From: Clostridiales bacterium
GTDB lineage: Bacteria > Bacillota > Clostridia > Christensenellales > CAG-917
DNA length: 17,260 nucleotides
Reading direction: 5' to 3'
NCBI GenBank assembly: GCA_012800805.1
Contig: JAAZIO010000132.1
Location: forward strand, 1 to 17,260
Shown here one piece after another: positions 13,766 to 17,260 of this stretch. Position 1 is the first letter of the stretch. Every line of letters starts with the position of its first letter. The position numbers and the translations under genes were made by a program. The notes beneath the pieces were generated by a model that had not been told where the DNA came from, made no database searches, and saw nothing but the letters and a program-made list of their open reading frames with translations.

Positions 13766-14413
13766 GTGAGAAAGCAGAAATACTTAATTTTTATAAGCTT
13801 GATTGTTTTACTTATATCAACAATTACCGCCTGCGCCGACGCGGCGGAGCCGCAGGTTTTCAACTTGGTTGTCCAAGAGACTTATCACTGGGACTTAATC
13901 AATGATTTAGGCGTGGGAACGGTTTATATTTCCAAGGACCCCTCGATTGCGGATGTGGACTCAAAAACGGGTCTTATTACGGCAAAGTCTGTGGGAGTTA
14001 CTTTTATTATCGCAAGAAACGGCGACAATATTTTGACCTGCAAAGTGGTAGTTTCAATGCCCAAGTCTCCCGAACAGCAAAAGATAGACATATCGGAAGC
14101 CAAAGTCGAGCTTGATAAGCAGGAATATGAATATACCGGCGAGGTTATAACCCCCATTGTCAAGCACGTCTTGTTAAAAGGCATTGTGCTGACGGCAGGC
14201 GTGGATTACACCGTTCAATACAAAAACAGCGTAAACACGGGCAGCCACTCTCTTGATATAATTGGAAAAGGCAAATACACGGGAACAATCAGTGTTTCCT
14301 TTTTGATAAAAGAAAAGAAGCCTATAACTCAAGCTACCGTAACCCTTTCCGAAACAGAATTCACATACGACGGCGAAGCGAAAACGCCCCATTGTTACGG
14401 TAAAACAAGGTGA
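13766..14413 (+). CDS. Ig-like repeat lipoprotein, 5' part (frameshifted)
   Basis: A GTG start (13766) with weak AAGG/GAGG upstream opens a type II signal peptide, MRKQKYLIFISLIVLLISTI, and then TAC with the lipidated Cys at 23. Residues ~47-96 look like a BIG2-type Ig domain (SKDPSIADVDSKTGLITAKS). From about 108 come ~77-residue repeats with the pattern xFxYDGEAxTP...VDYTVxYxNSVNTG...IxGKGxYTGT, common in surface proteins of Bacillota. One full repeat (~108-185) and the start of a second are read before the frame is lost after Pro208 at CCCC (14387-14390), ending in seven unrelated residues. Dropping one C restores TPIVTVKQGE and joins it to the ORF behind, giving about 426 aa in total. It would be anchored outside the cell, perhaps for adhesion or wall binding. 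Confidence 0.8.
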   Translation: MRKQKYLIFISLIVLLISTITACADAAEPQVFNLVVQETYHWDLINDLGVGTVYISKDPSIADVDSKTGLITAKSVGVTFIIARNGDNILTCKVVVSMPKSPEQQKIDISEAKVELDKQEYEYTGEVITPIVKHVLLKGIVLTAGVDYTVQYKNSVNTGSHSLDIIGKGKYTGTISVSFLIKEKKPITQATVTLSETEFTYDGEAKTPHCYGKTR

Positions 14414-14621
14414 AACCACTCTTACCGAAAATGTGGATTACATGCTTGAGTTCTCATCCGACCTTATAAATGTCGGAACGGTCACAGTAACCGTCAAGGG
14501 CATCGGGGCATACAGCGGTGAAGCAAGCAAAACATATACAATAACCGCGCTAAGCATTGAGGGGGCGACGGTAACCCTTTCCGAAGCCGAATTCACATAC
14601 GACGGCGAAGCGAAAACGCCC
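14339..14621 (+). repeat. 51-bp direct repeats (14339-14389 and 14571-14621)
   Basis: The two copies differ at only two bases, both within one Thr-to-Ala codon (gaaACAgaa against gaaGCCgaa). They encode TVTLSE[TA]EFTYDGEAKTP, the most conserved part of the Ig-like repeat. Start-to-start distance is 232 bases, that is 77 codons plus one base, which is the frameshift. The first copy ends immediately before the extra C. Confidence 0.9.
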
Positions 14622-15047
14622 ACCGTTGAGACAATCGAGGTTAACGGAAAGAGCTACAACGTTATATTAGACACCGATTATACTATTGAGTATTCAAATA
14701 ATATCTCAGCGGGCACGGCTACGGCAACGATAACGGGAAAGGGCAACTTTACGGGTGTAGTTGAGGCGCACTTTACAATAGCAAAGCTCGACCTGTCGGA
14801 AGCGGAAATTATATTAAACGGCGATGAATTTGAATTTGTTGAAGGCGGCGTTCAGCCTGAGGTTCTCTCTGTTATGCTTAACGGTAAAGAGCTTACTGAA
14901 GGGGTAGATTACGAAGTGGACTACGCCGACAACGAGAGCGAAGGGACAGGCAAAGTAATTATTACGGGAATAGGCAACTATGAGGGTAAAGCTGAAAAAA
15001 CCTTTATGATTCTCTTAGAGGGCGGCGGCGAAGAAGAAGGTGAATAA
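14433..15047 (+). CDS. Ig-like repeat lipoprotein, 3' part (frameshifted)
   Basis: This ORF is the continuation of the upstream lipoprotein in another frame; coding similarity resumes at about 14391, before the first ATG (14433), which has no ribosome-binding site, so it is unlikely to be translated on its own. It holds the rest of the second repeat (DYMLEFSSDLINVGT...GIGAYSGEA), a third (ATVTLSEAEFTYDGEAKTP...GKGNFTGVV) and a more diverged fourth (LSEAEIILNGDEFEFVEGG...GIGNYEGKA), then an acidic tail, GGGEEEGE. There is no LPXTG motif; anchoring would depend on the N-terminal lipid. Read together with the 5' part the gene would encode four repeats behind a BIG2-like domain. It is followed directly by a terminator. 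Confidence 0.75.
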   Translation: MDYMLEFSSDLINVGTVTVTVKGIGAYSGEASKTYTITALSIEGATVTLSEAEFTYDGEAKTPTVETIEVNGKSYNVILDTDYTIEYSNNISAGTATATITGKGNFTGVVEAHFTIAKLDLSEAEIILNGDEFEFVEGGVQPEVLSVMLNGKELTEGVDYEVDYADNESEGTGKVIITGIGNYEGKAEKTFMILLEGGGEEEGE

Positions 15048-15183: not shown

Positions 15184-16140
15184 TTATTTCAAGAATTTCT
15201 TTTTAAACATAATGATTCCTGTAATTATACAAAGCACCAAAGAGATTCCTATCGCAATCCAAAAGCCGTAGAGCTTTCCTTGGAACGGGACGCCCGTATT
15301 CATGCCCCAGAACGCCGCCACCATCGAAGGAATGGAAATCATGATGGTTATTACAGTCATAACTTTCATTACAATGTTGAGGTTGTTTGAAATAATCGAG
15401 GCGTAAGCGTCCATGGTGCCCGACAAAATCTCAAGGTAGAGGTTGCTGGTGTCGATAGCCTGATTGGTTTCAATGATAACATCGTCAAGCAAATCGGCAT
15501 CTTCTTCAAAGAAGTGGGCAAGCTTAGGCAGCCTGTCAAGAAGAATCCTGTTTGCCCTCAGCGAGTTGGAAAAGTATACAAGCGACTTTTCAAGGTCTAA
15601 AAGCTCAATCAGCTCTTTGTTCCTCATTGATTTTTCAAGCTCAGCCTGAATGCGGTGGCTCGCCTTGTCTATCTGAGTGAGGTATTGAAGAAACTTTGTG
15701 GATATCCTATACAAAAAATGAAGCACGAAGCGAGTGCGCTTTTTAATAGAAAAGTCTTTGACCCTGCCGTAGAAAAAATCGTTGACAATTGTTGTCTCTT
15801 CGTCAAGTGATACGGTAATAATCGCTTTTTCGGTTATAATAAATCCGAAAGGAATGGTGGTGTAGGTGTAATAGTCGTCCTCATCCTCGATTTTCGGCAT
15901 ATCGGCGACGATTAAGGTAACGCCGTCATCCTTATCGGCGCGGGCGCGTTCCTCTTCGTCAAGGGCGGCTTTCAGCATATTTTCGGGAACGGATAAAGCA
16001 CGCGAGATAAACTCTATCTCGCGGTCATCAGGATTGGCAAGGTGAATCCATTTATCTGTAAAATCGAAATCGGCTGTGATTGTATCCGCAGGAACCTGCG
16101 AAAGACGTTTTTTCTCGTCTGCGGTAATAACCTGAATCAT
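15184..16140 (-). CDS. corA: CorA-family divalent metal cation transporter
   Basis: The 318-aa protein is a CorA-type channel, normally a homopentamer importing Mg2+ (in some members Co2+ or Ni2+, and Zn2+ export in others). The family signature is present: FWGMNTGVPFQG with Gly-Met-Asn at 279-281, between membrane helix 1 (about 254-278) and helix 2 (about 291-311), followed by a basic tail, FKKKFLK. The long acidic N-terminal cytoplasmic domain (for example DEEERARADKDDG and EDEDDYYTY) and the helical stalk (residues ~150-245) are typical. AAAGGAGG (16153-16146 on the minus strand) lies five bases before the ATG. It is preceded by a leader holding a short ORF and alternative hairpins. Substrate specificity cannot be fixed from sequence; Mg2+ is the default. 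Confidence 0.92.
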   Translation of the reverse strand: MIQVITADEKKRLSQVPADTITADFDFTDKWIHLANPDDREIEFISRALSVPENMLKAALDEEERARADKDDGVTLIVADMPKIEDEDDYYTYTTIPFGFIITEKAIITVSLDEETTIVNDFFYGRVKDFSIKKRTRFVLHFLYRISTKFLQYLTQIDKASHRIQAELEKSMRNKELIELLDLEKSLVYFSNSLRANRILLDRLPKLAHFFEEDADLLDDVIIETNQAIDTSNLYLEILSGTMDAYASIISNNLNIVMKVMTVITIMISIPSMVAAFWGMNTGVPFQGKLYGFWIAIGISLVLCIITGIIMFKKKFLK

Positions 16141-16153
16141 ATTAGCCTCCTTT

Positions 16154-16196
16154 GCACGGCATGATATTGCCGTCTCGGGAGACCGAAAACGGCAAT
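16154..16196 (-). promoter_or_regulatory. Two mutually exclusive hairpins in the corA leader
   Basis: On the minus strand three segments follow the short ORF's stop codon: 1, ATTGCCGT (16196-16189); 2, ACGGCAAT (16173-16166); 3, TGCCGT (16161-16156). Segments 1 and 2 pair over 8 bp, with an inner TCGG/CCGA stem. Segment 2 can instead pair with 3 over 6 bp with a 6-base loop, ending two bases before the corA Shine-Dalgarno sequence. A ribosome on the short ORF's stop codon would cover segment 1. No T-tract follows either hairpin, so control, if real, is more likely translational than by intrinsic termination. Confidence 0.55.
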
Positions 16197-16197
16197 T

Positions 16198-16233
16198 TTA
16201 TGAGATGAAGAAACTCAGAGGATCTGCATCCAT
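16198..16233 (-). CDS. Putative corA leader peptide, 11 aa
   Basis: The ORF reads MDADPLSFFIS and stops at TAA. AAAAGGAG (16251-16244 on the minus strand) lies ten bases before the ATG, and a promoter 40 bases upstream puts the whole ORF at the beginning of the corA transcript. The stop codon lies 57 bases before the corA ATG. The start combines acidic residues and proline (D2, D4, P5), like the MgtL leader peptide of enterobacteria (EPDP), where such nascent chains destabilise ribosomes when Mg2+ is low and so turn on the Mg2+ transporter gene. Whether this 11-mer is translated is unproven; the ribosome-binding site, the position and the switchable structure behind it support it jointly. Confidence 0.55.
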   Translation of the reverse strand: MDADPLSFFIS

Positions 16234-16272
16234 TTAAATTGTGCTCCTTTTAATTATCTCTAATTTAAAGAC

Positions 16273-16301
16273 ATCATAACAAAATATTTTTTTTTTGGCA
16301 A
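16273..16301 (-). promoter_or_regulatory. Sigma-A-like promoter of corA and its leader ORF
   Basis: On the minus strand: TTGCCA (16301-16296), a 17-base spacer and TATGAT (16278-16273), each 5 of 6 to consensus. The predicted start near 16266 gives a leader of about 125 bases before corA, with the leader ORF's ribosome-binding site about 15 bases in. Confidence 0.65.
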
Positions 16302-16390: not shown

Positions 16391-17260
16391 ATGAAAAAGT
16401 ACGTTTATCTTTTTACCGAAACTGAGGGGCTCGGCAAAGAGCTGCTTGGCGGCAAAGGCGCAAACCTGGCCGAGATGACAAGGCTTGGATTGCCCGTTCC
16501 GCAAGGCTTTACAATCACGACCGAAGCTTGCACCCGTTACTATCAAGACGGAGAGAAGATTGCTTCCGAAATCGTTGAACAAATTTTTGATGCCCTCGCC
16601 AAGGTCGAGAAAATCCACGACAAGAAGTTTGGCGACGCTCAAAATCCCTTCCTCGTATCTGTCCGTTCCGGCGCAAGAGTATCGATGCCCGGCATGATGG
16701 ACACGATTTTGAACCTTGGTTTGAACGACATCTCCGTTGAGGCTCACGCTCGCAACACCAACAACCCCAGATTTGCCTACGACTGCTATCGCCGCTTCAT
16801 TCAGATGTATTCCGATGTCGTAATGGGTGTCGGTAAAGATAAATTCGAAAGAATCATAGATGAACTTAAAGAGGAGAGAGGCATAAAGAACGATATCGAC
16901 CTTACCGCCGACGACCTCAAAATCCTTATCAACAAATTTAAATCCATTTACAAGGACGCGCTCGGGAAAGAGTTCCCCCAAGACCCGAAAGAACAGCTTA
17001 TCGGTGCGGTTGAAGCCGTATTCCGTAGCTGGAACAACCCCAGAGCTATCGTCTACCGCAGAATGAACGACATCCCCGGAGACTGGGGCACCGCCGTTAA
17101 CGTTCAGGCGATGGTATTCGGTAACATGGGTGAAGACTCCGGCACAGGCGTAGCGTTCACACGCAACCCCTCCACCGGCGAAAATAAACTCTACGGCGAA
17201 TATCTTATGAACGCTCAGGGCGAGGACGTAGTAGCGGGTATCCGCACCCCCATGCCCATC
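16391..17260 (+). CDS. ppdK: Pyruvate, phosphate dikinase (N-terminal part, runs off the window)
   Basis: The frame is open from ATG 16391 to the last base, giving 290 codons of an enzyme normally about 875 aa long. PPDK interconverts pyruvate, ATP and phosphate with phosphoenolpyruvate, AMP and pyrophosphate, serving gluconeogenesis or PPi-linked glycolysis in anaerobes. The start [10 protein letters not shown] is followed by [27 protein letters not shown], and the highly conserved [20 protein letters not shown] of the ATP-grasp nucleotide-binding domain, then [38 protein letters not shown]. The phosphohistidine and PEP-binding domains lie beyond the window. AGGAGG at 16378-16383 gives a strong ribosome-binding site. 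Codons ending in C are more frequent than in the neighbouring genes, in keeping with high expression. Confidence 0.97.

Follow-up and report, generated by a model that had tools for sequence, protein, structure and literature searches.

The corA gene of the window (the whole stretch of 17,260 nucleotides analysed here) is preceded by a short open reading frame (ORF) for the peptide MDADPLSFFIS. As judged from comparative sequence analysis, this leader is real, conserved at the level of the peptide and tied to Mg2+ genes. Because an acidic, proline-containing start, similar to that of the drop-off leaders of enteric bacteria, is kept before corA in many Clostridia, a built-in Mg2+ gauge is probable, and we put at roughly two in three the chance that the leader is a cis-acting nascent-peptide Mg2+ sensor of the intrinsic ribosome destabilization (IRD) type. 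It most likely works like MgtL, to which it is likened by mode of action and not by descent. An earlier note on this DNA had proposed just such an analogous nascent-peptide sensor, and the retention of the codons in relatives and the almost exclusive occurrence of the motif at Mg2+ genes lend support to that proposal.

The leader ORF and its setting in the window

The ORF runs from 16233 to 16198 on the minus strand, with the codons ATG GAT GCA GAT CCT CTG AGT TTC TTC ATC TCA TAA. The earlier note had described it as an 11-codon ORF before corA with the Shine-Dalgarno (SD) sequence AAAAGGAG ten bases 5' of it, and the sequence, the SD and the coordinates all proved correct on re-reading. The features of the locus are as follows.

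16273..16301, minus strand: promoter-like site TTGCCA-17-TATGAT for a leader-corA transcript (consensus match at 10/12 positions)
16244..16251, minus strand: leader SD AAAAGGAG (GAGGTGC-type SD at the equivalent place in relatives)
16198..16233, minus strand: leader ORF MDADPLSFFIS including its stop codon (D2-A3-D4-P5, putative ribosome-destabilising motif; AGT7, rare codon behind it)
16186..16196, minus strand: 5' strand of the predicted ON hairpin, ATTGCCGTTTT, two bases past the leader stop and reachable by a ribosome at the stop codon (fold prediction)
16178..16184, minus strand: anti-SD GGTCTCC, within the loop of the predicted ON hairpin (fold prediction and covariation)
16166..16176, minus strand: 3' strand of the predicted ON hairpin, GAGACGGCAAT (fold prediction and covariation)
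16146..16153, minus strand: corA SD AAAGGAGG (sequence)
16144..16150, minus strand: GGAGGCT, which contains the SD and pairs with the anti-SD in the predicted OFF state (fold prediction)
15184..16140, minus strand: corA, 318 aa, CorA-family Mg2+ transporter (PF01544, E 7.9e-52)

A GMN motif was identified by eye in the CorA of the window. The leader stop and the corA start are separated by 57 bases, and a divergent gene for pyruvate phosphate dikinase (PF01326) starts at 16391. A TTGCC...TATAAT-like stretch is seen by eye at the equivalent place in most relatives of the window's family; taken alone, the promoter-like site of the window carries little weight, as six such sites occur in the region against 2.7 expected. 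A search of the window against Rfam returned no family above its threshold, the best weak match being RF02405 (E 0.96). The assembly of the source genome is fragmented, amounts to 1.1 Mb and has a completeness of 73%. Elsewhere in the window (13766–15047, plus strand), neighbouring ORFs of 215 and 204 aa lie in different frames and both contain repeats like LSEAEFTYDGEAKTP (by eye), as if a frameshift or sequencing error had split one repeat protein.

Conservation of the leader and its association with Mg2+ genes

Relatives of CorA are present in 46 of 60 genomes, the window's own included, and at E <= 1e-40 in at least 161 of 347 genomes sampled from the order Christensenellales. The corA upstream regions that were read number 160, of which 153 come from Christensenellales and seven are loci from named records; two loci had been left out beforehand, one without upstream sequence (L016) and one without a tblastn match (L081), although the genome of the latter nonetheless carries a leader (L194). 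Start codons of corA were set in the scripts by a simple rule. Within the 153 regions from the order, a strict search for SD-preceded ORFs of 7–40 codons beginning M[DE]x[DE]P returned 53, compared with none in 40 dinucleotide-shuffled sets. The count rose to 85 under a looser rule requiring two acids in residues 2–6 and a proline in residues 2–7 (shuffles: mean 0.5, maximum 3), and to 99 under the acid rule alone (mean 3.3, maximum 9). In 85 'other genes' of these loci, taken as controls, the strict, looser and acid-only rules found 3, 3 and 5 matches, respectively. Three control matches (L020, L028 and L030) represent corA with an alternative start, as the supposed gene runs in frame into the corA start, and the peptide is thus corA's own leader. 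The possibility of a chance ORF is ruled out by the shuffles and control genes, together with the genome-wide patterns and their reversed controls given below.

An SD-preceded short ORF beginning M[DE]x[DE] is found in 76 of the 160 upstream regions, and D or E at residue 2, the loose rule, in 104, at least two of which are spurious. Even under that loose rule, 56 of the 160 regions have no such ORF; the leaderless loci include L019, three loci of one genus (L025–L027, genus g3) and family f5 except L041 and L067. Examples of leader peptides are MDADPRSSHRLP, MDTDPLSYNLTEP and MEADPYSCYHMIK, and further examples are MDPDPYSRNCLG, MDPEPRPDSKNLKK, MEDPYSPNLIIK and MDPDEDNTMKSVSVRSGS. The proline has been lost in part of the window's family, with starts such as MDSDY, MDSDH, MDSDC and MEADA. 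For the window it is fair to call the motif milder than that of MgtL, as had been remarked earlier; some relatives are nearer to MgtL, among them MDPDPYSRNCLG (L106) and MDPEPRP (L148 and L162). The comparison of related upstream regions that the earlier note had suggested bears out its expectation: the ORF, the SD and the D-x-D-P codons are kept and the changes are mostly synonymous or conservative, with variation towards the end of the peptide.

The pattern of substitution is of the coding type. For the 22 leaders of the window's family, 14 of them distinct over codons 2–8, the mean BLOSUM excess amounts to +1.80 in the ORF frame, the two remaining frames giving -0.15 and -0.91, and the same calculation for the other 78 leaders gives +1.12 in the ORF frame, with +0.09 and -0.23 in the others. 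The signal of conservative change is greatest at codons 2 and 4, in a set for which D or E at codon 2 was an entry condition, and the peptide ends diverge. As a control, the bases past the leader stop, read on in frame, yield +0.52, -0.16 and -0.06. In the codon analysis of M[DE]x[DE] leaders, entropy is zero at codons 2 and 4 as a product of the selection rule, and these values are not counted as evidence; the substitution analysis of the window's family is the cleaner of the two. The start codon of the leader varies among ATG, GTG and TTG, and length variants around the motif keep the frame.

Genomes were also scanned with a pattern comprising an SD followed by (A/G)TG-D-A-D-P, with the reversed pattern as control. 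In the order (347 genomes) the scan found 42 rows (41 places), 35 of them directly 5' of corA (28 checked by tblastn and 7 by coordinates), compared with 5 for the reversed pattern; the other rows are three starts of CNNM/CBS proteins in one genus (PF01595 for L170) and four elsewhere. In the class (391 genomes) there were 16 rows (15 places) and none for the reversed pattern. Eleven rows lie directly 5' of corA, 8 of these outside the order, and the remainder consist of one CNNM/CorC protein start (L196) and four elsewhere. A sample of 299 genomes from the phylum returned 8 rows, none with corA, and 7 for the reversed pattern. Being linked to corA in both order and class and in none of the phylum matches, the DADP form appears to be characteristic of Clostridia, where most DADP places concern Mg2+.

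In L170, L171 and L172 (family f10, one genus) and in L196 (family f37), an SD and GTG-GAC-GCA-GA(T/C)-CCC open proteins of the CNNM/CBS type in frame, with starts reading VDADPSSIPI... and VDADPLSIIL.... Of the 120 best homologues of L170, 7 have a strict D-x-D-P start and 37 satisfy a loose acid-plus-proline rule, most of the others beginning MDSSP, MDDGS or MDASP; with the strict form in just these 7, the in-frame arrangement is no more than a lead. E. coli CorC, a Mg2+-stress protein, is reported to carry an N-terminal IRD sequence, considered to favour production of the protein when Mg2+ is high (PMC12421838). As a putative ribosome-destabilising start, the DADP sequence of the CNNM proteins resembles this start in the CorC group; the CorC sequence differs from the corA leader in being in frame with the protein itself, with no separate leader.

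The M-box riboswitch provides a further point of comparison, being likewise a Mg2+-related control element before a Mg2+ transporter but, unlike the leader, an RNA aptamer. M-boxes (RF00380) were detected in 8 of the 60 genomes, 7 of them before mgtE-type genes and one before a leader and corA. In this last case (G056, contig C45, 1701–2137; L104 and L216), an M-box scoring 139.9 bits is followed by a DADP leader and then by corA, so that two different kinds of Mg2+ control stand in tandem in one leader. No M-box was found in the window or in its own, incomplete genome. One of 33 leader-scored genomes has an M-box versus 7 of 27 others, a group that includes some genomes without CorA or with unread upstream sequence (Fisher p 0.018, kinship ignored). 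An M-box of Mycobacterium tuberculosis is reported to control a small upstream ORF (PMC12810186).

Rare codons behind the motif and a predicted RNA switch past the stop

The serine that follows the motif is nearly always encoded by AGT and the arginine by CGA, within codons 6–8 (16218–16210 in the window), and nearby residues use other codons. Among 55 distinct M[DE]x[DE] leaders, AGT encodes Ser7 in 33 of 34 cases and CGA encodes Arg6 in all 14, as compared with 28 of 532 Ser codons and 10 of 332 Arg codons in the corA frames of the same loci. Across 83 distinct leaders, AGT accounts for 67 of the 79 Ser codons in codons 4–9 versus 3 of 55 from codon 10 onwards (Fisher, kinship ignored), and CGA for 27 of 48 versus 8 of 84 Arg codons. 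AGT is the rarest Ser codon in the window's own genes (12/303), and CGA is used for 7 of 195 Arg codons, beside CGG with 6. Both AGT and CGA are wobble-read. We read them as slow codons that would detain the ribosome at the point where the acids lie close to the peptidyl-transfer centre, and a reason at the RNA level may apply as well. Rare AGT and CGA codons directly behind the motif constitute a new signature.

Two mutually exclusive helices are predicted past the leader stop. In the window, the ON hairpin pairs 16196–16186 with 16176–16166 and encloses the anti-SD (16184–16178), which can alternatively pair with the corA SD at 16150–16144 to give the OFF fold. The fold of minimum free energy (MFE) from the stop codon to the start codon is the ON hairpin, at -21.3 kcal/mol; holding unpaired the bases that lie under a ribosome at the stop codon (16200–16186) shifts the MFE to the SD-paired fold, at -19.8. 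The sequence ACGGCA is contested by both folds and pairs with either of two TGCCGT copies.

Folding was extended to 95 of the 104 leaders, the sets leaving out L036 and L059 (spurious), L015 (leader far off) and six with the stop too near the SD. In 58 of the 95, a predicted ON helix close to the stop of the leader and an exclusive OFF helix, either SD-hiding or a terminator, reach the scoring threshold, versus 21.5 ± 4.0 and at most 29 in 30 shuffle sets. The OFF helix is of the terminator type in 10 of the 58 (for example L051, L074, L077 and L088), and in L023 an apparent terminator and an antiterminator at the stop were seen by eye, where the script had listed another OFF helix. In some relatives the switch seems instead to consist of an intrinsic terminator together with an antiterminator starting near the leader stop. 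Covariation within the window's family lies above all 500 shuffles for both helices, with 0.380 versus 0.238 for ON and 0.257 versus 0.177 for OFF. One ON pair is mostly unpaired (16 of 22 leaders); the OFF helix aligns unevenly with 64.0% of cells paired, a percentage that is unchanged on a three-column slide.

Equilibrium accessibility of the SD fits the proposed switch in the window (0.62 versus 0.29) and less strongly in L005–L008. Over the 95 leaders the predicted direction is not general, the mean accessibility being 0.304 for a ribosome placed early and 0.333 for one placed late; 7 leaders behave clearly as predicted and 16 clearly in the opposite way (p 0.088 versus shuffles). At L199 and L202, loci from other orders of the class, a longer leader ends in a stop that adjoins the corA SD, so coupling instead of repression is possible there. 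The control platform of these two may be different or of opposite sign, and the same may hold for other families.

Proposed mechanism, rival readings and significance

In E. coli and Salmonella, early acids that are adjacent or one apart, often with proline, are reported to give pausing or drop-off; the IRD rule looks for such acids within the N-terminal 30 residues, frequently accompanied by a nearby proline (PMC11282234). At low Mg2+, ribosomes drop off MgtL at its EPDP sequence and mgtA is transcribed (PMC11282234). Complete translation of the leader lowers both mgtA and corA in these organisms (PMC11282234, PMC11552253), and expression of E. coli corA is inversely related to leader translation, with Rho involved (PMC11552253). 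The D2-x-D4-P5 arrangement of the window and its relatives conforms to the IRD rule, and the ORF is, in the manner of MgtL, short, acidic and proline-containing at its start and situated ahead of a Mg2+ transporter gene.

MgtL, the leader of mgtA in E. coli and Salmonella, resembles the Clostridia leader in having acids one apart and a proline at its start (EPDP versus DADP) and in preceding a Mg2+ importer, and it is associated with alternative RNA folds, such as are predicted for the Clostridia leader (PMC11282234). It differs in transporter and phylum, the motif being the sole similarity found in a peptide too short for comparison, and Rho-dependent termination has been reported for it, whereas the prediction for Clostridia is a helix hiding the SD or an intrinsic terminator. 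CorL of Salmonella and E. coli likewise precedes corA and its translation is inverse to corA expression (PMC11552253), but it is described as poorer in acidic and proline residues and as acting through Rho. In MgtQ of Salmonella (8 codons), the acids of a tiny ORF act via an SD-hiding stem, as is proposed for the leader of the window; unlike the latter, however, it sits between mgtC and mgtB within an operon, and MgtB requires its translation (PMC8092293). The corA motif of Gammaproteobacteria is also a structured leader before corA, but it was proposed as a riboswitch candidate and is confined to that class (PMC6429828). In the portions seen of the open-licence papers surveyed, no such leader is described for Clostridia.

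The proposed mechanism for the window is as follows. With ample Mg2+, ribosomes would finish MDADPLSFFIS and sit at the stop codon, covering the first strand of the ON hairpin, which begins two bases further on. The anti-SD GGTCTCC would then be available for pairing with the corA SD, which would leave corA off. At low Mg2+ the acidic D-x-D-P start would destabilise the ribosome, helped by the slow codon directly behind it, and early drop-off would allow the ON hairpin to form and hold the anti-SD, so that corA could be translated.

Four other readings were weighed against this one. Translational coupling or reinitiation, in which finished translation of the leader opens or feeds the corA start and raises corA, or in which Mg2+ is irrelevant, appears unlikely but is the most serious of them. 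It would account for the 16 of 95 leaders in which a ribosome at the stop codon clearly raises the predicted accessibility of the SD, and for the stops adjoining the SD in L199 and L202; in the window, however, 57 bases part the stop from the corA start and the hairpin logic is the opposite, and coupling leaves both the kept D-x-D-P and the M-box tandem unexplained. An undescribed riboswitch, with the RNA as aptamer and the peptide incidental, is considerably less probable. AGT and CGA are indeed nearly invariant at the nucleotide level, codon 7 varies least at its third base, and complements of codons 6–7 occur downstream in 29 of the 83 leaders, somewhat above the 19 expected from shuffles. 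Against an aptamer stand the confinement of conservative change to the ORF frame, the interchange of ATG, GTG and TTG at the start, the in-frame length variants around the motif, the absence of an Rfam match and a conserved part of about 8 codons, which we infer to be small for an aptamer.

We give little credence to a sensor of charged tRNA (Asp, Pro, Ser or Arg) of the amino-acid-attenuator type. The rare codons behind the motif would suit it, and Salmonella mgtP is described as responding to charged tRNA-Pro (PMC8092293), but the partner genes are Mg2+ genes and no run of a single amino acid is kept. Equally improbable is an ORF that is translated and has no regulatory role, a reading with which the 56 of 160 corA upstream regions without the ORF would agree, and against which the conservation, the gene association and the switch statistics all argue.

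Beyond the nascent-peptide sensor in the window, a broader joint reading is put forward tentatively, at rather less than even odds: a class-wide, ribosome-built Mg2+ gauge of the Clostridia in which D-x-D-P is used with opposite signs and the rare, wobble-read AGU and CGA codons serve as a timer. If the opposite-sign part is true, a separate leader would turn the importer gene corA on at low Mg2+, while the motif fused to some CNNM-type proteins would cause these to be made only at high Mg2+. If the timer part is true, AGU or CGA placed one or two steps behind the motif would give an unstable ribosome time to fall off.

To the initial reading of this locus the present analysis adds the predicted RNA switch past the stop, the class-wide spread, the rare codons and the M-box tandem. 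The question is directly testable, as the leader is short, the cultured Christensenella timonensis, a member of Christensenellales within Clostridia, has one (L147) and a natural variant series exists, for which MDADP, MDPDP, MDSDY and MDSSD are ready-made. The rare-codon signature is a new prediction on what makes such peptides work. Mg2+ sensing through drop-off from an acidic nascent peptide is already known from enteric bacteria; a separate and widespread system in Clostridia, with another transporter and other RNA platforms, would, if true, make ribosome stability a general gauge of Mg2+.
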